Below are positions 24,414 to 36,062 of a stretch of 64,000 bases of DNA, in pieces; position 1 is the first letter of the stretch, and each line of letters opens with the position of its first letter. Origin of the DNA: Azospirillaceae bacterium. GTDB taxonomy: Bacteria > Pseudomonadota > Alphaproteobacteria > Azospirillales > Azospirillaceae. Both the position numbers and the translations under genes were made by a program. A model generated the notes under the pieces. The model saw nothing but the letters and a program-made list of their open reading frames with translations, was not told the origin of the DNA and searched no databases. The stretch lies in NCBI GenBank assembly GCA_031291675.1, contig JARLIO010000011.1, positions 1-64,000 on the forward strand, read 5' to 3'.

Positions 24414-25519
24414 CGCAAGCGGCTTCCACCACCATCGAAGAGCAAGACATCTTCTGGACGAGAGCCGAGCCGGATGATTGATCCCGGTGCCGGCGGCGGG
24501 CCTGACGCGATCTCGGTCACGACCGCGTGATCGCTGCGTGACTGGCCATGGACATAGGTCTTGTCGCCGAGATATTCGGCAAAATCAATTTTGACCGGGA
24601 TACCGGGATCAGAATCTCCAACAAGATGGAGAAGATGCGGCCGGATCGCGACGGAAACCGCACCATCACAGCGTTGGCCCGCGATGCAATCGGGGCCGGT
24701 GAGGAGCGAGCCGTCGATCTCCAAACCTTCGGTCGTGAACCGGCCGGGCAGGACATTGATCTTAGGCGAGCCGATAAAACCAGCGACGAAGAGATTGTCG
24801 GGGTCACCGAAGATGTCTGCCGGCTTGCCGGCCTGCTCGATGCGACCGCCGCGGAGCACCACGATCCGGTCGGCCAGCGTCATCGCCTCGGTCTGGTCAT
24901 GCGTCACGTAGATCATCGTGTTGCCGAGCCGGCGATGCAATTTGGCGATCTCGATGCGCATCTCGATCCGAAGTTCGGCATCAAGGTTCGACAGCGGTTC
25001 GTCGAACAGGAAGACACGGGGATCGCGCACGATGGCGCGGCCAATCGCGACGCGCTGGCGCTGTCCGCCGGAGAGCTGCGCCGGGCGCCGGTCCAGGAGA
25101 GCGATCAGATGCAACAGCTCGGCGGCGGCTTCGACCTTGGCCGCCACCTCGGCGCGCGGCCGACCGGCCATCTTCAGCGAGAAACCCATATTGTCGCGCA
25201 CCGAAAGATGCGGATAAAGCGCGTAGGTCTGGAACACCATTGCGATACCGCGCTCCGACGGCTCGGCATCGGTGACATCGCGCCCGCCGATGGCGATCGT
25301 GCCGTCGCTGACCTCCTCAAGGCCCGCGATCATGCGGAGAAGCGTCGACTTGCCGCAGCCGGAAGGACCGACGAAGACGATGAATTCGCCATCCGCAATC
25401 GTGAGACTAATGTCGCGCAACACGTCAACGGCGCCGAAGCGCTTGGTGACGCGATCAAGGACGACGCCCGAGGCGGGCGTGGTGGCACCCCTGGACGCGG
25501 CCCTGGCGGCCGACGTCAT
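24410..25519 (-). CDS. Sugar ABC transporter ATP-binding protein (MalK/UgpC family)
   Basis: 369 aa. Walker A GPSGCGKSTLLRMIAG, Q-loop VFQTYALYPHLS, signature LSGGQRQRVAIGRAI, Walker B VFLFDEPLSNLDAELR and switch His in YVTHDQTEAM are all intact; a C-terminal TOBE region follows. It energises the two permeases of the same operon. The start overlaps the GH127 stop. Its TAG stop is formed by the CTAG end of a palindromic repeat, so the last residues may have been altered by that repeat. Confidence 0.94.
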   Translation of the reverse strand: MTSAARAASRGATTPASGVVLDRVTKRFGAVDVLRDISLTIADGEFIVFVGPSGCGKSTLLRMIAGLEEVSDGTIAIGGRDVTDAEPSERGIAMVFQTYALYPHLSVRDNMGFSLKMAGRPRAEVAAKVEAAAELLHLIALLDRRPAQLSGGQRQRVAIGRAIVRDPRVFLFDEPLSNLDAELRIEMRIEIAKLHRRLGNTMIYVTHDQTEAMTLADRIVVLRGGRIEQAGKPADIFGDPDNLFVAGFIGSPKINVLPGRFTTEGLEIDGSLLTGPDCIAGQRCDGAVSVAIRPHLLHLVGDSDPGIPVKIDFAEYLGDKTYVHGQSRSDHAVVTEIASGPPPAPGSIIRLGSRPEDVLLFDGGGSRLR

Positions 25520-27450
25520 CGCGTGCCCTCCTGCCGAACCCAGACGAGCATTTCGCCACCCGCGCGATTATCCCAGGCATAATAGGGCACGGCCTTGATG
25601 CGCGCCGGCACCCGGGCGGGAGCCTGGTTGATATAGAGCGCGCGGGGCGCGGCGGGCGTTTCCCTCAAGCCATCGGCGGCAATCGCGACGGCGCCGTCGA
25701 GCCCGTCCACCGGCTCGCAGACAAAGGCGCCGCCAGCCGGCAAGACCAGCGAATTGAGCGCGGCGCCGTTGTCGACCTCTTCGAGGCAATAGACGAGCGG
25801 ACCGCGCATCAAGGAAACGCGCCCCTGGTCGGCGCCAACCTTCGGGCTCGCGTGGATCGTCTCGACCGGCATGTCGAGTGTCAGCGCGAGTCGGTCGCCC
25901 GGTGCCCAGGTGCGGTTGACGCGGGCATAGCCGTCCGTGACAAGCGACTGAAGGCTGACGTCCGCGCCATTGATGCTGAGCGTCGCGCTGCGTGCCCAGC
26001 CGGGAATGCGCAACGCAAGCGTGAAGGCCGCCGGCGTGCTCGGATCGACGGCGATCTCGATCCGGCCGTCGACCGGATAGCGCGTGGCCTGGGTCAGCGT
26101 CACGGGCACGGCGCCGACCGCGAGTGTTGCCTCGCTCTCGCAATAGAGATGCACCGCGATCACGTCGTCAGCGACGCCGTACATATAGGTACCGACCGAG
26201 GCGACGAGCCGCGCGATATTGGGTGGGCAGCACGGGCAGCGGTGCCAGATCCAGCGATGGTGCTGGCCCCGGCTTTCAAGCGGGTTGTCATAGAAGAAGC
26301 GGGTTCCGTCGAGCGACAGGCCGACGAGCGCACCATTATAGAGCGCCTGCTCCATGATGTCGGCATAGCGGCCGACGGCCCCCATGCCGAGCATCCGGTT
26401 CGCCCAGAAGACGAGCGCGACCGAGGCGCATGTTTCCTGATAGGCCGTGGCATTGGGCAGATCATAGTCGAATGTCAGGCCCTCATTGTCGGCGGAGGGA
26501 CCAAAACCGCCGGTGACATAGAGGTTGCGCTCCGTGAGATGGGTCCAGAGCGCGTCGAGCGCGGGCCTGAGCGTCGTGTCGCCATATTCGGTCGCGATGT
26601 CAGCCATACCGGAATAGAGATAGGCTGCGCGCACCGCATGGCCGACGACGGTCCGCTGCTCGCGCACCGGCACATGCGACTGATTGTATTCATAGGTGGC
26701 AAAATGATAGTCGGCCATCGTTTCGCCGCGCGCACGCATTTCGCCCGCGAAATAATGCGGGCTCTGGCCGCGCTCGTCGATGAAGAACCGTGCGAGGTCG
26801 AGATAACGCCGCTCGCCCGTGGCGCGTGCGAGCCTGACGAGCGCCAGTTCGATTTCGGGATGGCCGCAATAGCCGCGCCGCTGGCCGTCGCCGGAACCGA
26901 AAACGCTGGCGATATGATCAGCATAGCGCGCCAGGATAAGCATGAATTTGCGCTTGCCGGTGGCGTGGAAATAGGCGACCGCGCCCTCGATCAGATGTCC
27001 GGCGTCATAGAGTTCATGGCAGTCGCGCAGGTTCGTCCAGCGCTTCTCCGGCTCCATGCGCAGATACCAGGAATTGAGGTATCCGTCTTCAGCCTGGAGG
27101 CGGCCATAGGCATCGACGATCTCGTCGACCCGGGCCTCGAGCACGGGATCCGGCTTGCGGTAGAGCGCATAGGCCGCCGCCTCGATTGATTTGCCGAAGT
27201 CGGAATCCCAGAACATCTGGGTCGTGACCTGATCGTTGCCGGTCTGATAGGGAATGCGCAGGCCTGGATTGGGCCGGTCCGGATCGACCTGATCGAGCAT
27301 GCCGGCCTCGATGCAGCGGTCAAGCAGCGTGTGGGCGGTCACGGTGGCGATCGTGTCGATGCGCGGTCCAAAGAAGCCGCCGACCTTGATCTGCTCGATG
27401 GACGGCGGACGGAACAGGGCGAGCGGAGGCCGGGAGGCGGCGGTATTCAT
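25516..27450 (-). CDS. Glycoside hydrolase family 127, beta-L-arabinofuranosidase
   Basis: 644 aa. GH127 enzymes bind zinc through Glu and three Cys and use a Cys nucleophile: here YQETCASVALVFW supplies Glu and Cys, and CPCCPPNIARL the Cys-Cys pair. An (alpha/alpha)6 barrel and C-terminal beta domains fit the length. No signal peptide is visible, so it acts on imported oligosaccharide in the cytoplasm. AAGGAC lies 7 nt before the ATG at 27450; an ATG at 27483 overlapping the permease stop (TGATG) is the alternative. An open frame continues far upstream, but that part belongs to another frame of the permease. Confidence 0.9.
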   Translation of the reverse strand: MNTAASRPPLALFRPPSIEQIKVGGFFGPRIDTIATVTAHTLLDRCIEAGMLDQVDPDRPNPGLRIPYQTGNDQVTTQMFWDSDFGKSIEAAAYALYRKPDPVLEARVDEIVDAYGRLQAEDGYLNSWYLRMEPEKRWTNLRDCHELYDAGHLIEGAVAYFHATGKRKFMLILARYADHIASVFGSGDGQRRGYCGHPEIELALVRLARATGERRYLDLARFFIDERGQSPHYFAGEMRARGETMADYHFATYEYNQSHVPVREQRTVVGHAVRAAYLYSGMADIATEYGDTTLRPALDALWTHLTERNLYVTGGFGPSADNEGLTFDYDLPNATAYQETCASVALVFWANRMLGMGAVGRYADIMEQALYNGALVGLSLDGTRFFYDNPLESRGQHHRWIWHRCPCCPPNIARLVASVGTYMYGVADDVIAVHLYCESEATLAVGAVPVTLTQATRYPVDGRIEIAVDPSTPAAFTLALRIPGWARSATLSINGADVSLQSLVTDGYARVNRTWAPGDRLALTLDMPVETIHASPKVGADQGRVSLMRGPLVYCLEEVDNGAALNSLVLPAGGAFVCEPVDGLDGAVAIAADGLRETPAAPRALYINQAPARVPARIKAVPYYAWDNRAGGEMLVWVRQEGTR

Positions 27451-27482
27451 GGGACGGTCCTTGGCTGATGATGTTTCGAGCA

Positions 27483-28364
27483 TCACTTCACCGCGCCGGC
27501 GGTCAGGCCGCGGATGTAGTGGCGTTGCAGGGCGAGGAAGAGGATGAGACAGGGGATCATCATGATGGTGACGCCCGCTTGCACCGCGCCCCAGTCGATC
27601 GAGCCGTAATGGCCGGCGCGCACGGCGGTCAACAGAACAGGAAGTGTGTAATTGTCCTGGCTGGTCAGCAATACGAGTGCGGCGAGGAATTCGTTCCAGG
27701 CGTTCAGAAAAGCGATCAGGCCGACCGATACGATCCCGGGCATGACCAGGGGGCCGAGCACATGGATCAAGAGCCGCAACCCGGTCACGCCGTCGATACG
27801 CGCGGCCTCGGCGATCTCCGGCGGCACCGCGTCGAAGGCATTGCGCATCATGAAGACCGAGAACGGCAGCTGCAGCGTCACATAGATGAGCACAAGCCCG
27901 ACCAGCGTGTTCTGCAGCTTGAGTTCGGCCAGGATCAGGAACAGGGGCGTCAGGATCGACTGGAACGGCACCATCATCGTCGCCAGCACGAGGACGAAGA
28001 AAAAACCCTTCAGCGGAAACCGGTAGCGCGAGAAGCCGTAGCCGGCGAGCACCGAGACCAGAATCGTGAGCGCGGTGGTCGCGATCGCGACGATCAGGCT
28101 GTTCAGCGTATGGTGCAGAATGCCTGCGCCGAAATTCTCCAGCGTGCGGAAATTGTCGAGGCTGATGCCCTCCGTCGGCCAAGGCGGCAGCGGCGGCTGT
28201 GCGGCCTCGGAGCGCGATTTGAAGGTGGCGAGCACCGCCCAGGCGATCGGCGCAAGAAACAAGAGCGCGACGAGGATGCCGGCCGCATGCGACATGATGT
28301 CGATCCGGCGTGGCATCCGACGGCGGGGGCTGGCGACGGCGCCAGATATGGTTGATACGGTCAT
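27483..28364 (-). CDS. Sugar ABC transporter permease (MalG/AraQ type)
   Basis: 293 aa with six membrane segments. The cytoplasmic coupling motif is EAARIDGVTGLRLLIHVLGP, near the C-terminus as in MalG-type permeases. It pairs with the upstream MalF-type permease, whose stop it overlaps, and feeds sugar to the GH127 enzyme encoded immediately downstream. The N-terminal 25 residues are basic and cytoplasmic. Confidence 0.93.
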   Translation of the reverse strand: MTVSTISGAVASPRRRMPRRIDIMSHAAGILVALLFLAPIAWAVLATFKSRSEAAQPPLPPWPTEGISLDNFRTLENFGAGILHHTLNSLIVAIATTALTILVSVLAGYGFSRYRFPLKGFFFVLVLATMMVPFQSILTPLFLILAELKLQNTLVGLVLIYVTLQLPFSVFMMRNAFDAVPPEIAEAARIDGVTGLRLLIHVLGPLVMPGIVSVGLIAFLNAWNEFLAALVLLTSQDNYTLPVLLTAVRAGHYGSIDWGAVQAGVTIMMIPCLILFLALQRHYIRGLTAGAVK

Positions 28365-29269
28365 CGGCCGTCCTCCCCAGAGCGCAAGAGCCGCAATTGC
28401 ACGAGGCTCAGGATCAGGAGAATCCCAAGCAGCACCATGGAAAGCGCCGCGCCATAGCCGAGCCGGAACGAGACGAAAGACTGATTGAAGATCCAGTAGA
28501 CGGCGGTCACGGTCTGGTTCTGCGGACCGCCGGCGAGGATGATGTAGAACTGGTCGAAGGCGAGCATCGATCCCGTGACGGCAAGGATCAGCGCCAGCGC
28601 GAGCGGGCGGCGGATCAGCGGCAGCGTGATGTACCGGAAGCGCTGGAGCCAGGTGGCGCCATCAATGCGTGCCGCCTCGTGATAGTCGGCGGGCACCGCC
28701 TGAAGGCCGCTCATCAGAATCACCATGTAGAAGCCGGACATCTTCCAGACGACCATCAGCGTCACCGACCAGAACGCCGGCGTGAAGTCGGCGTTGAGGT
28801 CGTAGGGCGCGGCGGTCAGTCCGAGCAACTGGGCGAGCGGCGAGAACAGGCCTGAATCGACATTCGACAGCCATGCCCATAGCAAGCTGGCCGACGCAAA
28901 GCCGACCACCACCGGCAGGAAGAAGGCGGTGCGATAGAGGTTGACGCCGGGGCGTGGGCGTTCGACGAAGAGCGCGAGCGCCAGGCCGACGGCCAGAAGC
29001 CCGATCGTAGCGGCGATCGTATAGAAGACCGTGAATTGGAGTGCGTTCCAGAAGCCGTGGTCGTTCCAGAGCGTGAGATAGTTGCCGAAACCGATCCAGC
29101 GCCGCCGGCCGATCAGCGGCCAATTATGGAGCGACATCCAGGCCGTCATGACGAGTGGCACGGCGAAGAAGGCGACGACGAGTGCAATCGCCGGGGCGAT
29201 ATAGAGCAGGCCGATCCATTGCCGGCGAGGTCTTCGTCGCGATGGCACGATGTCACGATTAGCCGTCAT
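28361..29269 (-). CDS. Sugar ABC transporter permease (MalF/UgpA type)
   Basis: 302 aa with six membrane segments and the coupling motif EAARIDGATWLQRFRYITLP. It is the first of the two channel subunits and overlaps the second by ATGA. The substrate-binding protein gene lies 129 bp upstream. Confidence 0.93.
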   Translation of the reverse strand: MTANRDIVPSRRRPRRQWIGLLYIAPAIALVVAFFAVPLVMTAWMSLHNWPLIGRRRWIGFGNYLTLWNDHGFWNALQFTVFYTIAATIGLLAVGLALALFVERPRPGVNLYRTAFFLPVVVGFASASLLWAWLSNVDSGLFSPLAQLLGLTAAPYDLNADFTPAFWSVTLMVVWKMSGFYMVILMSGLQAVPADYHEAARIDGATWLQRFRYITLPLIRRPLALALILAVTGSMLAFDQFYIILAGGPQNQTVTAVYWIFNQSFVSFRLGYGAALSMVLLGILLILSLVQLRLLRSGEDGR

Positions 29270-29398
29270 GGTCGGTCTCCGGCGGTCTCAGAACGGAAGC
29301 GGGGGACGGCCGGTCCGCGACGACGGGGTCGCGAACCTGGTCTCATCCCTGACGTGAGGATCCGGGCATCGGGGCCGACCTCACAGGGGCATGGAACG

Positions 29399-30643
29399 TC
29401 AGCGCGCCGCGTCGATGATTGATTGCATCGCCGCGTCGCCTTCCTTCAGGGACGGTTCGATGGCGCCTGCATCAGCGAACAGCACTTTGCTGAGCGTCGT
29501 GTTCCAGGGACCGTTCGCTGAATTGATCAGATCGTTGAAGACGACCGAATAGGGTGTGCGGCCCTTGGCCATGGCGTCGGCGGCGATCAGATAGCGCGCA
29601 TCGAGATCGGCGAGTGCCTGTTTGGCAATATCGCCACGCACCGGCAGGCTGCCGTTCCTGGCGAGCAATGTTTGGCCCTCAAGCGAATAGGCGTATTCGA
29701 GGAATTCCTTGATCGCGCCGAGTTTCTTCGTGCCTTTGGAGACGACGAAATTGTCGCCGCCGGCAAAGGACGAAGTGCCGCCCGTCTTGCCCGGCAGATA
29801 GGTCACGCCATAGTGGAGGTTCGGATATTGCCCGTTGAGGGCGCCGATGGCGAAGGAGCCGGACGGGGTGATACCGATCTTGCCGGTCGCGAAAGCGGCA
29901 AAGAAGTTGGTGCCCGTGTCGGTCCTCGCGCCGGCGGGCACGAACCTGTCCTTGACCATGCCCTGATAGAAAGCGATCGCATCGCGCATCTGCGGCGTGT
30001 CGAGCGTGGCCTTCTTGCCGCCATCGGAAAAGATGTCGCCGCCCGACGCCCAGATGAGCGGCGTGAAGGTAAAGATGTTGCAGCCGCCGCAATTGCCGGA
30101 GAAATAATAACCGTAGGTGTCGGCGCCGAGCGCGCGGACCTTCTCGGCGTCGGCGCGGATCTCCGCCCAGGTGGTCGGGCCCTTTTCCGGATCAAGGCCA
30201 GCCTTCTTGAAGAGATCCTTGTTCCACAGCAGGACGGAGGCGTCGGCCGAGAACGGCATGCCGTAGATCTTCCCCTCGAAGGTGCCGACGGAGAGATGCG
30301 CCGGCGACAGGCTGGAAAAATACGGCAGCGATTTCGCGAGGTCGGTCAGATCTTCCAGTTGGCCGGAGGAGGCGAATGCCGGCGTATAGATGAGGTCGAG
30401 CGATAGCGCGTCGGGTGCGCTGCCGCCGGCGGACGCGATCGCGTATTTCTGCACGAGTTCGTTGACCGGGACGATCTGCAGCTCGACCCTGGTCTCATGG
30501 CTCTTGTTGAAGGCATCGACGAGTTTCGGCATGAAAGTCGAATCGTCGGAGCGCGCCCAAAGGCTGATCGTTTCGGCGCCTGCTTGCGATGTAACGGCGG
30601 CTGCAGCAAGAAATAGTCCGCCGAAGAGTGTTGCGTATGACAT
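29399..30643 (-). CDS. Sugar ABC transporter substrate-binding protein
   Basis: 414 aa periplasmic protein of the extracellular solute-binding family 1. The signal peptide ends after SQAGA. Family segments are VPVNELVQKYAIASAGGSAPD, YGMPFSADASVLLWNKDLF and the C-terminal helical lid. A strong ribosome site GGGAGG lies 6 nt before the ATG. From the linked GH127 enzyme the substrate is probably an arabinofuranosyl oligosaccharide; this is inferred from context only. Confidence 0.93.
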   Translation of the reverse strand: MSYATLFGGLFLAAAAVTSQAGAETISLWARSDDSTFMPKLVDAFNKSHETRVELQIVPVNELVQKYAIASAGGSAPDALSLDLIYTPAFASSGQLEDLTDLAKSLPYFSSLSPAHLSVGTFEGKIYGMPFSADASVLLWNKDLFKKAGLDPEKGPTTWAEIRADAEKVRALGADTYGYYFSGNCGGCNIFTFTPLIWASGGDIFSDGGKKATLDTPQMRDAIAFYQGMVKDRFVPAGARTDTGTNFFAAFATGKIGITPSGSFAIGALNGQYPNLHYGVTYLPGKTGGTSSFAGGDNFVVSKGTKKLGAIKEFLEYAYSLEGQTLLARNGSLPVRGDIAKQALADLDARYLIAADAMAKGRTPYSVVFNDLINSANGPWNTTLSKVLFADAGAIEPSLKEGDAAMQSIIDAAR

Positions 30644-30726
30644 TTTTTCCTCCCGAGTATGCCTGAACGCGCAGGCTTTCTTGTTTATCGCTCCACCCTG
30701 TTGCTGGGTGGTTGTTTGTCAAGGCG

Positions 30727-31788
30727 TCAGTTCGCTGGAGCACCACAGGATTGGCGAACCACCAGTCGGCACGGCATGCGCCTTATTCCCGGCTCGACGC
30801 GCGTGCCGCCGACAAGATCAAGGAGAGCCGCACCGGCGATGCGGCCAAGTTCGGTCAAGGCCATGTCCACCGAGGTCAATGGCGGGCGGGTTGCTGCGGC
30901 GAAAATCTCCCAATTGTCGTAGCCGACGACCGCGAGGTCGTCCGGAACACGGATACCATGCAGGGTCAGCGCGTCGATGAGGCCGCGCGCGATCTGATCG
31001 TTGCCGCAGAAAACCGCGTCGGGCCGGTCCGCCGATGGTGCCATGATGAGCCGACAGCCCACCGCAAATCCAAACGCCTCGGACCAATCGCCGCGTTCGG
31101 CCACGCCGAAACACGGCAAATCGGCTTCCCCGAGCGCGTCGCGCCAGCCTTCGGCGCGCAGCGCCACGGCGGCGAAACTGTCGGGTCCCGTGACATGCGC
31201 GATACGCCGCCGGCCCAGCGCAATAAGATGCGCAACCGCCGCCTTGGCACCGCCGAAGTCGTCCGGCACGAAGGCAATGTCACTCTCGGCCGCGGCCGAA
31301 TTGACATGAACGACCGGCATCGGCAGTCGGGCGAGATCAAGCGGCGGGCGGCGGTCGATGCGCTTGCCGGCGACGATCAGCCCGTCGACGCACTTCTCCT
31401 GCATGGCGCGCAGATTGATCCGTGCGCGCTCGGGATCGTCTTCGAGCGCGCAGAGGAAAACGGACACGCCGCGATCAACCATCGCGCCAGCAAGTCCGGC
31501 CGCGACGGGCAGCGTGAAACGGCCATAGGTATCATTCGTCAGAAGGCCGATTGTGAAAGAACGCTGGCTCACCAGCGCGCGCGCCATGGCATTGGGTGTA
31601 AAGCCAAGCGTCTGGGCCACCGTGCGAATGCGATCGCGGGTTTCGGGGGTCATCCGGCCCTGATCGTTCAGCGCCTTCGATGCGGTCGAAATGCTGACGC
31701 CCGCCTCGCGCGCAACATCACGAATCGTCACGCGTGCCGCGATCGGTTCGGGGACATCAATCAGGTCCGCAAGGTCTTCCGCATCCAT
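30727..31788 (-). CDS. LacI family transcriptional regulator
   Basis: 353 aa. The HTH TIRDVAREAGVSISTASKAL begins about residue 21, so there is a 20-residue extension over typical members. The hinge helix (TPNAMARALVSQRSFTIGLL) and a periplasmic-binding-type sugar domain follow. It is first in the strand order of the sugar import operon, 83 bp before the binding-protein gene. It presumably represses the operon until an arabinose-type sugar binds. An AAAACGTTTT palindrome upstream is a candidate operator. Confidence 0.93.
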   Translation of the reverse strand: MDAEDLADLIDVPEPIAARVTIRDVAREAGVSISTASKALNDQGRMTPETRDRIRTVAQTLGFTPNAMARALVSQRSFTIGLLTNDTYGRFTLPVAAGLAGAMVDRGVSVFLCALEDDPERARINLRAMQEKCVDGLIVAGKRIDRRPPLDLARLPMPVVHVNSAAAESDIAFVPDDFGGAKAAVAHLIALGRRRIAHVTGPDSFAAVALRAEGWRDALGEADLPCFGVAERGDWSEAFGFAVGCRLIMAPSADRPDAVFCGNDQIARGLIDALTLHGIRVPDDLAVVGYDNWEIFAAATRPPLTSVDMALTELGRIAGAALLDLVGGTRVEPGIRRMPCRLVVRQSCGAPAN

Positions 31789-32076: not shown

Positions 32077-32748
32077 TCAGCGCCCCGGCGATCCCAGCAG
32101 GCGTCCGCCCCGCCAGCTGCCGACGATGCCGCAACCAACCAGGATCAGCCCGGTCACGCCGAGATTCATCACCAGCACCAGCGCGGTCGGGTCGACGACA
32201 TGGATCAACAGGTGCGCGGTATCGGCAAAGCCCGCGACCGCCAGCGCCCCAAGCCACGCCGTGTTGGCAGCGCGCAGCGGCCGGGACCGGCGCAGCATCC
32301 GCCACAGCACCAGCGCCAGCGGAACGCTGGCCATGACCAGCGTTTCCAGGCAGCGCACGCTGTCCGCGACGATCGGCGCGCCGGTGGGAATCGCGACCCA
32401 ATGCCCCAGACAGCCGGCACCGACGCCCCAGACCCAGACCAGGAATGCCGGCAGTGGCAACAGGAACCAGCGGCGCGACCGGTCGGGAAGCCCGATGGAC
32501 AGGGCCGCCAGGGTCCCGGTCACGCCCGTCAGCCACGACCCCAGAAGCGCCACGACAAAGTCCGGCTCCACCAGGCGCTGGTCCAGATCCGCCCGCAACC
32601 CGCGTGCCGCGGCCAACAGCGTGATCAAAACGGTTGCCAGCACGATCAGCCGCGTGGCGCGCACCGCGGGCGGCGCCAGCGGCTGCACCGGCGCCAGATG
32701 ATCGACGAGCGATTCGATGAGATGATCGGTGGTCGTCATCGCTCTCAC
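32077..32748 (-). CDS. nrsF: NrsF-type (DUF1109) anti-sigma membrane protein
   Basis: 223 aa with six hydrophobic segments, the DUF1109 family that holds ECF sigma factors at the membrane. The GTG start overlaps the sigma stop (GTGA); an ATG at 32739 is an alternative. One family cysteine is present (SVRCLE, Cys133), but the position of the second, normally in a late loop, reads HLLIHVVDP (Val184). Two other Cys are present (113, 206). In Caulobacter both family cysteines are reported to matter for metal response, so sensing may differ here. Confidence 0.82.
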   Translation of the reverse strand: MRAMTTTDHLIESLVDHLAPVQPLAPPAVRATRLIVLATVLITLLAAARGLRADLDQRLVEPDFVVALLGSWLTGVTGTLAALSIGLPDRSRRWFLLPLPAFLVWVWGVGAGCLGHWVAIPTGAPIVADSVRCLETLVMASVPLALVLWRMLRRSRPLRAANTAWLGALAVAGFADTAHLLIHVVDPTALVLVMNLGVTGLILVGCGIVGSWRGGRLLGSPGR

Positions 32749-33290
32749 AATCCCTCCAACAGCGTCCGCAACCGCTTGATCGCCCGATGCGCCGCCACCT
32801 TGAGCGCCGTCTCGGACTGGCCACTGATCGCCGATGCCTCCCTCAATGAAAGTTCTCTCAAGCGCAGCAGTTCGATGGCCTGCCGCTGCCCCGCGGGCAA
32901 GGTCTCGATCGCGCCGCGCAGACGGCGCGAATCACTTCGCTCTTCATGATGGTTCGTTTCATCATGGGCAAAGGTTTCATGCTCTTCGGTCAGCGGCATT
33001 TCGCGCGCCCCCTGACGGCCGCGACGCCGCAAACGATCGGTCAGGCGGTGCTGGGCAACACCGACCAGCCAGGGCGCAAAGGGACGCGTCGGATCATAGG
33101 TATGGCGGATCATGTGCAGGGTCAGCAGAATATCCTGCACGCCATCCTCGATTTCAGGTCCATCCAGCCCGGCACGATGGGCCAAGGCCCGCAAATAGGG
33201 GGTCACCGCCCCCAGCAGCTGACGATAGGCCGCGGCGTCGCCCCCCTGGGCGCGAACCATCAGCGCCGACCAGTCGGATTCTTCCGCCAC
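32745..33290 (-). CDS. sigF: ECF sigma factor (SigF-like)
   Basis: 181 aa. Region 2 is AAYRQLLGAVTPYLRALAHR then IEDGVQDILLTLHMIRHTYD and RPFAPWLVGVAQHRLTDRLR; region 4 is LPAGQRQAIELLRLRELSLR with ASAISGQSETALKVAAHRAI. The GTG start at 33290 follows GGGG and matches the family N-terminus. It is co-transcribed with its DUF1109 anti-sigma and faces the bufferin operon, the arrangement seen for sigma-F in Caulobacter, so it probably switches on bufABC under copper or other metal stress. Confidence 0.9.
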   Translation of the reverse strand: MAEESDWSALMVRAQGGDAAAYRQLLGAVTPYLRALAHRAGLDGPEIEDGVQDILLTLHMIRHTYDPTRPFAPWLVGVAQHRLTDRLRRRGRQGAREMPLTEEHETFAHDETNHHEERSDSRRLRGAIETLPAGQRQAIELLRLRELSLREASAISGQSETALKVAAHRAIKRLRTLLEGL

Positions 33291-33595
33291 TGCGTTACCC
33301 CGCTCCCGAACAGAACAATTCGACAACGCAACCCTGTGCCGCAGGTCGGAACCGGCACCGCGGCACCCGCTTCCCCTGACGCCACCAGACCCGCGCGCGC
33401 CGAAGGTCCACGATCCCGACGCCGGCAAGATTGCACGGGGCCAGGGCCAGGTCCAGAGCGATGCCAAAGGATCACAGGCGGGCGCCGCGCCAACCCGAAA
33501 AAACTGTGCCTGGCGATGTAACGTCGGCCGGCCCCGCGACGAACCTTCCCCTGAACGCCCGCTGTCGGGCGTCCCACCAAACAGGGAGCACTCAG
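33291..33595. other. Divergent regulatory region between sigF-like gene and bufA
   Basis: 305 bp with no gene; it carries the promoter for the bufferin operon on the plus strand and that of the sigma gene on the minus strand. Confidence 0.6.
33517..33543 (+). promoter_or_regulatory. Candidate ECF promoter of the bufferin operon
   Basis: TGTAAC (33517-33522) and CGAA (33540-33543) are separated by 17 nt, the shape of an ECF -35/-10 pair (AAC core and CG-containing -10). The start codon follows 53 nt after the -10. The match to the cognate sigma is inferred. Confidence 0.5.
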
Positions 33596-33874
33596 ATGTC
33601 TCGTTTTGCCACTGTCGCCGCACTGTCCACCGTCCTGGGTCTCGCTGCCGCCATGCAGACCACCGTTGCCAGCGCCGCCGATCCGGCGCCGATGGCGAAG
33701 ACCGAAGCGGCCGTGAAATGTTTCGGTGTCAATGCCGTCGCCAAGAATGATTGCGCCGCCGGCAGCCATTCCTGCGCGGGTCAGGCGAGCATGGCCCGCG
33801 ACCCCAAGTCCTTCATCCTGATCCCGGCCGGCGCCTGCGCCAAGATTGCCGGCGGCACCCTCAACCCCGCGTAA
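33596..33874 (+). CDS. bufA: Bufferin-type peptide precursor (BufA1, DUF2282)
   Basis: 92 aa. A signal peptide ends at about VASA-ADPAP. The mature part carries four cysteines in the family pattern: KCFG, KNDCAAG, SHSCAGQ and GACAKI. In bufferins an MNIO enzyme with its partner converts Cys residues to thiooxazole-type groups that bind copper in the periplasm. The next two genes encode exactly that pair. AGGGAG precedes the ATG at 33596; the frame is open upstream but a signal peptide starts only here. Confidence 0.9.
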   Translation: MSRFATVAALSTVLGLAAAMQTTVASAADPAPMAKTEAAVKCFGVNAVAKNDCAAGSHSCAGQASMARDPKSFILIPAGACAKIAGGTLNPA

Positions 33875-33887
33875 CGGTCCCCCATCC

Positions 33888-34787
33888 GTGTCAAACCTGT
33901 CGGCGTGTTCCGGCGGGTGGCCGGGCACGATCCCCGCTTCGGCGGGGATCGGCCTGCGCTTTCCCCACCATCGCGATGTGATCGAGACCCGGCCGGCCGT
34001 CGGCTGGCTTGAGGTCCATACCGAAAACTATACCGGCGGCGGCAACCCGGCGGCGTGCCTTGAGGCGGTCCGCGCCGACTACCCCTTGTCGCTGCACGGT
34101 GTCGGCATGTCACTGGGCAGCGCGGACGGCCTTGATGCCGATCACCTGGCGCGCGTCCGGGATGCGGTGCGCCGCTTTGAGCCGGCCCTGGTCTCCGACC
34201 ATCTGTCCTGGAGCCTCGGCGACGGCCTCTATGTCGCCGATCTGCTGCCCCTGCCCCTGACCGAAGAGGCGCTGGCCGTGGTCTGTCGCAATGTGGAGCG
34301 GTTCCAGGACGGTCTCGGCCGCCAGATTCTGGTTGAGAATCCGTCAAGCTATTTGCGTTATCGTCATTCGACGATCCCGGAAGCGGAGTTCCTCGGTGCC
34401 GTGGTCGCGGCAACCGGCTGCGGCCTGTTGTGCGACGTCAACAACATCTTCGTCAGCGCCTGCAATCATGGCTGGGACGCGATGCATTATCTCGACACGA
34501 TCCCGGCGGCTGCGGTCCAGGAAATCCATCTGGCCGGGCATGCGATCCGCACCATCAACGGGCGCGACATCCGGATTGATGACCACGGATCGGCGGTCAG
34601 CGATCCGGTGTGGACGCTGTTCTCGGCGGCGATCCAGCGCTTCGGCCGGATCCCGACGCTGATCGAGTGGGACAACAACCTGCCGGCGCTCGATATTCTG
34701 GTCGCCGAAGCCGCCAAGGCCGACGCGATCCTGGCCGCAGCCCCGCAGCACACGTCGGAGAGGGAGCGCCATGCCGCGTTTGCGTGA
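33888..34787 (+). CDS. bufB: MNIO family (DUF692) peptide-modifying iron oxygenase
   Basis: 299 aa TIM-barrel enzyme with the multinuclear iron ligands of DUF692/MNIO proteins visible in order: EVHTENY, SLHGVGMSLG, VSDHLSW, ILVENPSSY, LCDVNNIFV, EIHLAGH and IEWDNNLP. It would oxidise cysteines of the BufA precursor in the cytoplasm before export. GTG at 33888 is the likely start, 13 bp after bufA; an in-frame TTG inside bufA is less likely. It overlaps bufC by 17 bp. Confidence 0.92.
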   Translation: MSNLSACSGGWPGTIPASAGIGLRFPHHRDVIETRPAVGWLEVHTENYTGGGNPAACLEAVRADYPLSLHGVGMSLGSADGLDADHLARVRDAVRRFEPALVSDHLSWSLGDGLYVADLLPLPLTEEALAVVCRNVERFQDGLGRQILVENPSSYLRYRHSTIPEAEFLGAVVAATGCGLLCDVNNIFVSACNHGWDAMHYLDTIPAAAVQEIHLAGHAIRTINGRDIRIDDHGSAVSDPVWTLFSAAIQRFGRIPTLIEWDNNLPALDILVAEAAKADAILAAAPQHTSERERHAAFA

Positions 34788-35604
34788 CCTTCAGACCGCC
34801 TTCGTCCGCAGTCTGCGCGACCCCGACGATGCCATCGCCCTGGCCGCGATCGGCCTGCTCGATGATGCCGCCGATCCCGGGATCCCGGCTACCGCACGGA
34901 TCGGCATTCATCGCAACACCCATATCGGCACCCTGACGACGGCGCTGCGGCAGACATTCCCGGCGGTCGAAGCGCTGGTGGGTGTCGATTTCTTCGAAAC
35001 CGCGATCGCGTTGTTCGTCCAGGAACGCCCGCCGCGGGCCGCGGGTCTCAACGACTATGGCTGCCACGCGCAAGCCGATGGCGCTGCGACCACCGGCCCG
35101 GGATTCCCCGCCTTTCTCGCCCGACTTCCTGCCACGGCGTCCCTGCCCTATCTGCCCGATGTCGCCCGGCTGGAGGCGGCGATCGCCGCCGCGGCCCAGG
35201 CCCCCGATGCCGGGTCCCTGACGCCGCAGGCCCTGGCCGGGCTCGGCGACGCCGCGGCGGATCACGCGCTGACACCGCACCCCTCGCTGCGTCTGGTGAC
35301 CGTGACCGGGCCGATCGAGATTCTGTGGCGGGCGGTGCTCGACCATGACGACGCGACCCTGCGAAGCCTCGCCCTGCCCGGGAACCGCCGCGGCCTGCTG
35401 GTCTATCGCGCCACCGCCGGGGTCACGATCAACGCCCTGGACCCGGCGCAGACCGATTTCGCGGCCCGCTTGTGTGGCGGCCAGCCGCTGCGTACCATCC
35501 TCGACGATGCGACGCCGGCAGCACTGCTGACGCTGTTCGCCGAACTGCTCGCCGCCGGCTGCTTCACCGCGACCCGCCCTCTTGCGATCGAGATGCCGTC
35601 ATGA
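34771..35604 (+). CDS. bufC: DUF2063 (BufC) partner protein of the MNIO enzyme
   Basis: 277 aa. The N-terminal domain (LRDLQTAFVRSLRDPDDAIA, GIHRNTHIGTLTTALRQTFP) is the DUF2063 'putative DNA-binding' fold, which in MNIO systems binds the precursor peptide rather than DNA. A C-terminal domain of about 100 residues contains VYRATAGVTINALDP. It overlaps bufB upstream and the DoxX gene downstream (ATGA), indicating stoichiometric production. Confidence 0.88.
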   Translation: MPRLRDLQTAFVRSLRDPDDAIALAAIGLLDDAADPGIPATARIGIHRNTHIGTLTTALRQTFPAVEALVGVDFFETAIALFVQERPPRAAGLNDYGCHAQADGAATTGPGFPAFLARLPATASLPYLPDVARLEAAIAAAAQAPDAGSLTPQALAGLGDAAADHALTPHPSLRLVTVTGPIEILWRAVLDHDDATLRSLALPGNRRGLLVYRATAGVTINALDPAQTDFAARLCGGQPLRTILDDATPAALLTLFAELLAAGCFTATRPLAIEMPS

Positions 35605-36062
35605 GTCCACCGCCGCCTTCGCCGCTGAGCAGCCTTCGGCCCCCGGTCAAGGCCGTGGTTGCCGCGCTGAACCACGTCCCCTACGCACTGCTGGCACTGC
35701 CCCTGCGCTTTGCCGTTGCCACCGTGTTCTGGAATTCCGGGACCACCAAGCTCGCCGATTGGGGGGCGACGCTACAACTTTTCCGCGAGGAATATCGGGT
35801 TCCACTGCTGCCGCCGGAAATCGCCGCCCCGCTGGCCGCATCGATCGAACTGACAACGCCGATCCTGCTGGTGCTCGGGCTGTTGACCCGGCCGGCCGCG
35901 GCGCTGCTGCTGGGTATGACCACATTCATCGAGGTCTTCGTCTATCCCCTGGCCTGGCCGACCCATATCCAGTGGGCGGCGATGCTGCTGGTTCTGCTGT
36001 GCCGCGGTGCGGGTGGGCTGTCGCTGGACGAACTGCTGTCCCGGCTTTTCGACAAGCCCTGA
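35601..36062 (+). CDS. DoxX family membrane protein of the bufferin operon
   Basis: 153 aa with four membrane helices. DoxX marks are RFAVATVFWNSGTTKLADW and ELTTPILLVLGLLTRPAAALLLG. It is last in the operon, overlapping bufC by ATGA. DoxX proteins often accompany bufferin operons and may help redox handling or export; its precise role is unknown. Confidence 0.88.
   Translation: MSPPPPSPLSSLRPPVKAVVAALNHVPYALLALPLRFAVATVFWNSGTTKLADWGATLQLFREEYRVPLLPPEIAAPLAASIELTTPILLVLGLLTRPAAALLLGMTTFIEVFVYPLAWPTHIQWAAMLLVLLCRGAGGLSLDELLSRLFDKP

Follow-up and report, generated by a model that had tools for sequence, protein, structure and literature searches.

The window analysed here, a 64,000-nucleotide stretch of an Azospirillaceae bacterium (assembly GCA_031291675.1, contig JARLIO010000011.1, positions 1 to 64,000), carries a bufferin (MNIO) operon that faces a divergent SigF/NrsF-type pair, an extracytoplasmic function (ECF) sigma factor and its membrane anti-sigma factor. 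The identification of the locus is confirmed, and both the operon and its layout are of a known kind. A feature that an earlier sequence-only reading had missed lies in the anti-sigma factor: judged from its alignment, the window NrsF is a member of PF06532 that lacks the second conserved cysteine of the studied homologues and stands outside their two-cysteine (131/181) type, so neither the Caulobacter nor the Bradyrhizobium trigger can be assumed for it as it stands. We propose that SigF and NrsF control this Buf1 bufferin operon and that a periplasmic soft metal, bound by Cys110, Cys130 and His180 of NrsF, would free SigF and switch bufferin on, a reading in which we place about as much belief as doubt.

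The operon itself is one more member of a large known family. Stress sensing by ECF16/NrsF systems is unsettled: chromate and cadmium are described as inducers in Caulobacter, peroxide in Bradyrhizobium and hypochlorous acid in Brucella, and nothing tried induced the Sinorhizobium system. A subfamily with a natural histidine, often beside copper-peptide operons, offers a clean natural contrast by which metal and redox sensing could be told apart.

Distribution of histidine-type NrsF

Residues of the window NrsF are numbered from the ATG at 32739, and the three codons below, all on the minus strand, were checked individually. His180 (32200–32202) occupies the position of Caulobacter C181 and Bradyrhizobium OsrA C179, Cys130 (32350–32352) that of Caulobacter C131, and Cys110 (32410–32412) is an extra cysteine nearly restricted to proteins with histidine at residue 181 (His-type); the window protein keeps the first conserved cysteine, and the second is replaced by His180. 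Across 102 aligned alphaproteobacterial NrsF rows from the order and the class (22 from the order), the C131 column holds Cys in 100, and the C181 column has 49 Cys, 43 His, 7 Glu, 2 Asp and one gap, so that Cys or His accounts for 92. The near-invariance of C131 and the predominance at residue 181 of Cys and His, both soft-metal ligands, support a metal site. The extra cysteine, about 20 residues before C131, is present in 32 of the 43 His rows and absent from all 49 Cys rows (1/49, L159, in a later alignment of the window and 181 other rows). Nine of the 11 His rows without it come from one genus and have CxxC at C131 instead. In 80 named loci, which were fetched by the likeness of their sigma factors to those of His-type partners and which show conservation within the subfamily and not its frequency, both cysteines occur in 80/80, and residue 181 is His in 78 and Tyr in 2.

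These numbers could also be explained by Caulobacter-like metal sensing through Cys130 alone, His180 being a neutral replacement and Cys110 structural. The 100/102 conservation of Cys130 fits such a sensor, as does the observation that single C131S and C181S mutants of Caulobacter NrsF are still further induced by dichromate (PMC3511200). However, His in 78 and the extra Cys in all 80 named rows exceed neutral expectation, in rows picked by sigma-factor likeness, and we regard this explanation as quite improbable.

The alignments rest on 23 NrsF matches in the order, of which 22 were used (one fragment dropped), and on 90 in the class, reduced to 80 after removal of three repeats and seven fragments. 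The 182-row set contains four places twice (L050/L219, L130/L245, L141/L218 and L155/L226) and two further identical pairs, and its 122 His rows include L168, a partial match with a gap at residue 181 in one alignment and His in another. The type may be undercounted, since the Pfam model gives His-type proteins about 50–107 bits and no more than seven candidates per genome were scored at class and phylum level. NrsF matches at phylum level occurred in 81 of 398 genomes and stay outside the residue-181 counts. No description of a His-type NrsF turned up in the literature searched; the first bufferin paper and the large ECF reclassification, which lay outside that search, or other sources may mention one.

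A quick tree of 110 of the 178 sigma factors, with near-copies left out, joins 63 His rows and one Tyr row in a single group (support 91, not starred). Thirty Cys rows neighbour this group and eight more group with Glu rows, and residue-181 type agrees with the second thiol in 105 of the 110 rows. Because the His rows share one group, the contrast between Cys-type and His-type rests on few evolutionary events.

The two types also differ in how often a putative autoregulatory motif is present. In the order and class set a SigF motif precedes sigF in 25/48 Cys-type and 3/42 His-type loci, the window included (Fisher p = 3e-6, shared ancestry not corrected for). The scarcity of the motif in His-type loci would fit the RpoD-dependent promoter reported for rpoQ-rsqA of Cupriavidus metallidurans (PMC10304878), if RsqA is His-type. 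The match in the window, GTAACG-N16-CGAC at 33273–33298 on the minus strand, overlaps the sigF start and is probably due to chance: among 81 upstream regions (the 80 named loci and the window) it is the only one, against a shuffled mean of 0.92. With no counterpart in any of the 80 named loci, autoregulation of sigF in the window was rejected as the less likely explanation.

Other residues and unusual records appear in the same alignments. Six rows (L113, L114, L115, L118, L121 and L124), two of them near an MNIO gene, have Glu at C181 and CxxC at C131, and their sequences suggest a third sensor type. The two Tyr rows, L202 of Rhizobium rhizogenes and L225 of Bradyrhizobium sp. Gha, lack an MNIO gene within the flanks that were fetched; in L202 a SigF motif precedes a thioredoxin-like gene (CPYC, called by eye). 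One genome, G033, carries both a Cys-type (L039) and a His-type (L050/L219) NrsF and would be a good test organism. The record of L241 is titled Mycobacterium sp. KBS0706, but its sigF-nrsF groups with proteobacterial loci, and the label is probably wrong.

Proposed metal sensing and its alternatives

The window NrsF was modelled with AlphaFold2 using 56 rows, its own and those of 55 named loci out of the 80; the model has a mean pLDDT of 88.8 and six long helices, at 24–46, 59–82, 96–112, 123–152, 157–179 and 186–214. It places Cys110 where helix 3 ends, Cys130 close to the beginning of helix 4 and His180 immediately past helix 5, with less certain flanking loops (mean pLDDT 67 for 111–120 and 78 for 181–190). 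Loops 2-3 and 4-5 are basic, which by the positive-inside rule would put the three residues together on the periplasmic side. A fold search of this model against solved structures returned 0 matches at E <= 0.001.

On the DNA side, a predicted SigF-dependent promoter, GTAACG-N16-CGAA, lies on the plus strand at 33518–33543, 52 bp before the bufA start codon, and matches the ECF16 target pattern GTAAC-N17-CGAA. The motif was noticed by eye and then searched for as a pattern: GTAAC-N17-CG is found upstream of bufA in 40/65 cases (the window plus 64 named loci, with start codons picked by a simple rule), whereas 50 base shuffles gave 0.96 on average and never more than 3. Among spacers of 10 to 23, 17 is the commonest (40/65), followed by 16 (21) and 12–14 (12–13 each). 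From the frequency of the pattern across the genome, about 0.0007 sites would be expected in the intergenic stretch. The SigF-type promoter ahead of bufA, whose position is shared by relatives, is new here as a sequence prediction. An MNIO gene falls inside the fetched flanks of 61 of the 80 loci picked by sigma-factor similarity; it is divergent in 33 of them and co-directional in 28, and this proximity together with the motif counts indicates that the layout is beyond chance.

The motif also bears on whether the sigma pair controls the adjoining operon at all or whether another regulator drives bufA. Deletion of rpoQ in C. metallidurans raised expression of the gig genes in metal-treated cells, and no evidence was reported for gig transcription by RpoQ-dependent polymerase (PMC10304878), both of which would suit another regulator. 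Data from Caulobacter and Sinorhizobium meliloti, by contrast, support sigma control of the operon (PMC3511200, PMC6180224), as does the motif before bufA in the window and its relatives, and we judge a separate regulator highly improbable.

In the mechanism that we propose, NrsF would hold SigF at the inner membrane in the resting state, by analogy with published homologues. Excess periplasmic soft metal, most likely Cu(I), with Au, Cd and Hg also possible, would bind the candidate Cys110/Cys130/His180 site, and NrsF would then release SigF. With RNA polymerase, SigF would transcribe bufABCD from the predicted promoter. From what is published for related bufferins, BufB and BufC would act in the cytoplasm, oxidising the two central BufA cysteines to thiooxazoles, and the peptide, presumably exported by Sec, would buffer copper in the periplasm. 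The choice of metal as the signal draws on the natural histidine itself: it stands where the cysteine of OsrA is needed for the peroxide response (PMC3420878), which argues against the known peroxide switch, and its frequent occurrence beside copper-peptide operons suggests soft-metal binding by Cys110, Cys130 and His180.

Several observations weigh against this proposal. The association of residue 181 with the second thiol comes down to two independent pairs on supported branches and four in all, with a median p of 0.5 in the sign test. MNIO genes lie near 21/43 His-type and 18/49 Cys-type NrsF (Fisher p = 0.29), so that NrsF type does not predict the target and His-type NrsF was rejected as a marker of bufferin operons; in Caulobacter, moreover, bufferins are under the control of a Cys-type sensor. 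Since Caulobacter C181S still answers dichromate, a metal response does not strictly require C181. The rpoQ deletion phenotype also counts against the proposal, and S. meliloti RpoE7 is reported to have given no response to H2O2, cadmium or chromate, its inducer not having been found (PMC6180224). Exact GTAAC-N17-CGAA sites number 14 genome-wide and 32 in the reversed control, so the pattern is not enriched and is uninformative by itself at that scale; its placement before bufA is informative. A wider SigF regulon in this genome was accordingly rejected, the bufA site being the only one convincing by position (with mechanically called open reading frames).

Bufferin-less His-type loci add a further difficulty, with the motif standing before a thioredoxin-like gene (L144), MsrA and cytochrome b561 genes (L138) and a DUF1223 gene (L241), targets suggestive of thiol or oxidative repair. 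Two thiols are kept in His-type NrsF, and a disulphide switch is possible. NrsF could then be a redox sensor in which a Cys110–Cys130 disulphide, formed under oxidative, hypochlorous or thiol stress, replaces the C131–C181 pair, bufferin being part of a response to periplasmic thiol damage. The retention of two thiols where residue 181 is not Cys, the agreement of the two traits along the sigma-factor tree and the thioredoxin-like and MsrA targets all suit this explanation, and the related Bradyrhizobium EcfF/OsrA and Brucella ECF16 systems answer peroxide or hypochlorous acid (PMC3420878, PMC8315932). However, a disulphide does not need His181, which is nonetheless kept in all named rows except the two with Tyr, and Caulobacter SigF targets rose at most twofold with H2O2, tBOOH, paraquat or diamide (PMC3511200). 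We consider redox sensing unlikely, although a good deal less so than sensing through Cys130 alone.

A broader possibility, which we put forward tentatively and with rather more doubt than belief, is that the NrsF family has at least two sensor chemistries, the window and a clade across Alpha- and Betaproteobacteria having a periplasmic Cys-Cys-His soft-metal site in place of the redox-capable C131/C181 pair and being uncoupled from sigF autoregulation. Such an NrsF would sense copper or gold directly and release its ECF sigma factor in response, and members of the family could then be turned from metal to oxidant sensing, or back, by an exchange at residue 181.

Two further groups of genes follow the motif in His-type loci. 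In L218 (the same place as L141), L221, L223, L224, L237, L247, L133 and L144 it precedes a secreted thioredoxin-like gene with WCPxC, called by eye and by a Pfam run for L144 alone, which suggests a second regulon type. In the bufferin-less loci L142 (G218) and L148 (G444) it precedes a protein of about 350 residues with 29–31 Cys in NPC repeats, which in L142 ends in a C-terminal cytochrome P460 domain (PF16694); these proteins are perhaps another metal-binding target.

The operon and its gene calls

The segment 32077–36062 runs exactly from the nrsF stop to the doxX stop. The sequence-only reading had placed here a bufA with four cysteines, an MNIO enzyme, a DUF2063 partner and a DoxX protein, divergent to a SigF-like sigma factor and a DUF1109 anti-sigma factor, and all six genes are present at those coordinates with agreeing family models. 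On the minus strand, nrsF (32077–32748) encodes the six-helix His-type anti-sigma factor (PF06532, 56.6 bits, cut-off 26.8) and sigF (32745–33290) the ECF16-type sigma factor (Pfam Sigma70_r2, 39.9 bits; r4_2, 35.2 bits). An ECF sigma factor with regions 2 and 4 beside a DUF1109 protein with six long model helices is what defines an ECF16/NrsF pair. The nearest relative found for sigF has 69% identity (Rhodospirillaceae R-7, L172).

On the plus strand, bufA (33596–33874) encodes a Buf1 bufferin precursor of 92 residues (PF10048, DUF2282, 69.6 bits, cut-off 22.4), bufB (33888–34787) the MNIO maturase (PF05114, 343.5 bits), bufC (34771–35604) the DUF2063 partner protein (PF09836, 63.4 bits) and doxX (35601–36062) a membrane protein resembling gigT/bufD (PF07681, 64.9 bits). 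BufB, at 371 bits, exceeds the cut-off of 310 of the NCBIfam bufferin-maturase equivalog NF050167. BufC and DoxX, the usual partners in Buf1 clusters, are both over their Pfam cut-offs, and DoxX reaches 50.6 bits on the NCBIfam HvfX-family model (cut-off 80). The most likely starts are GTG 33888 for bufB, GTG 33290 for sigF and, for nrsF, either GTG 32748, which overlaps the sigF stop, or the alternative ATG 32739.

BufA has cysteines at positions 42, 53, 60 and 81 of the preprotein, in columns that hold Cys in 109, 109, 107 and 106 of 109 aligned BufA sequences, and its N-terminus, MSRFATVAALSTVLGLAAAMQTTVASA, is by inspection a putative signal peptide. Assignment to BufA2 was rejected, the NCBIfam match being weak (29.7 bits, cut-off 60) and Pfam DUF2282 pointing to Buf1. 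Taken with the gene order and the SigF-type promoter, the family models argue for the earlier identification of a bufferin cluster, which predicted a metal-induced, copper-sequestering peptide. One MNIO gene and one NrsF were detected in the 5.87 Mb genome (97.7% complete). Genes that by eye resemble a sugar ABC transporter set and a LacI-like regulator adjoin the cluster at 25516–31788; no link to the bufferin operon was seen.

Comparison with known systems

The sequence-only reading had treated this layout as open ground, which is only partly right, since the gene set has already been studied in Caulobacter, C. metallidurans and S. meliloti. Caulobacter vibrioides/crescentus is among the closest: sigF-nrsF (CC3253-CC3252) and CC3254-CC3257 (DUF2282, DUF692, DUF2063 and DoxX) form a gene set like that of the window, divergent by gene order and with C131 conserved. 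This system has been studied by promoter mapping and cysteine mutants; SigF controls CC3254-CC3257, its targets carry GTAACC-N16-CGAA, NrsF is a negative regulator, replacement of C131 and C181 raises expression, and chromate and cadmium induce (PMC3511200). Caulobacter NrsF differs in having C181 and a SigF-type promoter before sigF, where the window has His180 and the extra Cys110. The Caulobacter peptide contains thiooxazoles that bind Cu(I) and Cu(II); in bufferins it is the central cysteines that are modified, and sigma and NrsF genes are also reported in Buf1 clusters (PMC12452194).

In C. metallidurans, gigPABT is divergent from rpoQ-rsqA, a layout and gene content like those of the window, and is induced by copper and gold through a periplasmic signal (PMC10304878). 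The only Cupriavidus system of this comparison to be typed, the C. basilensis NrsF (L179), is His-type with a divergent bufferin operon. Among the 74 plasmid records that it matched, two were from Cupriavidus (sp. KK10 and C. necator) and none from C. metallidurans.

S. meliloti RpoE7-EcfR7 is a divergent ECF16 pair beside SMb20527-SMb20530, the same kind of DUF692/DUF2063 operon, with the motif GTAACA-N16-CGAA; unlike the window, both cysteines are reported as conserved and the pair appears autoregulated (PMC6180224). Bradyrhizobium japonicum EcfF-OsrA (ECF16) shares with the window an NrsF/DUF1109 anti-sigma factor, whose Cys129 is probably needed for sigma binding. It differs in that Cys179 is needed for the response to H2O2, the C179S protein still repressing but failing to answer peroxide, and in that its reported targets are stress-repair genes (PMC3420878).

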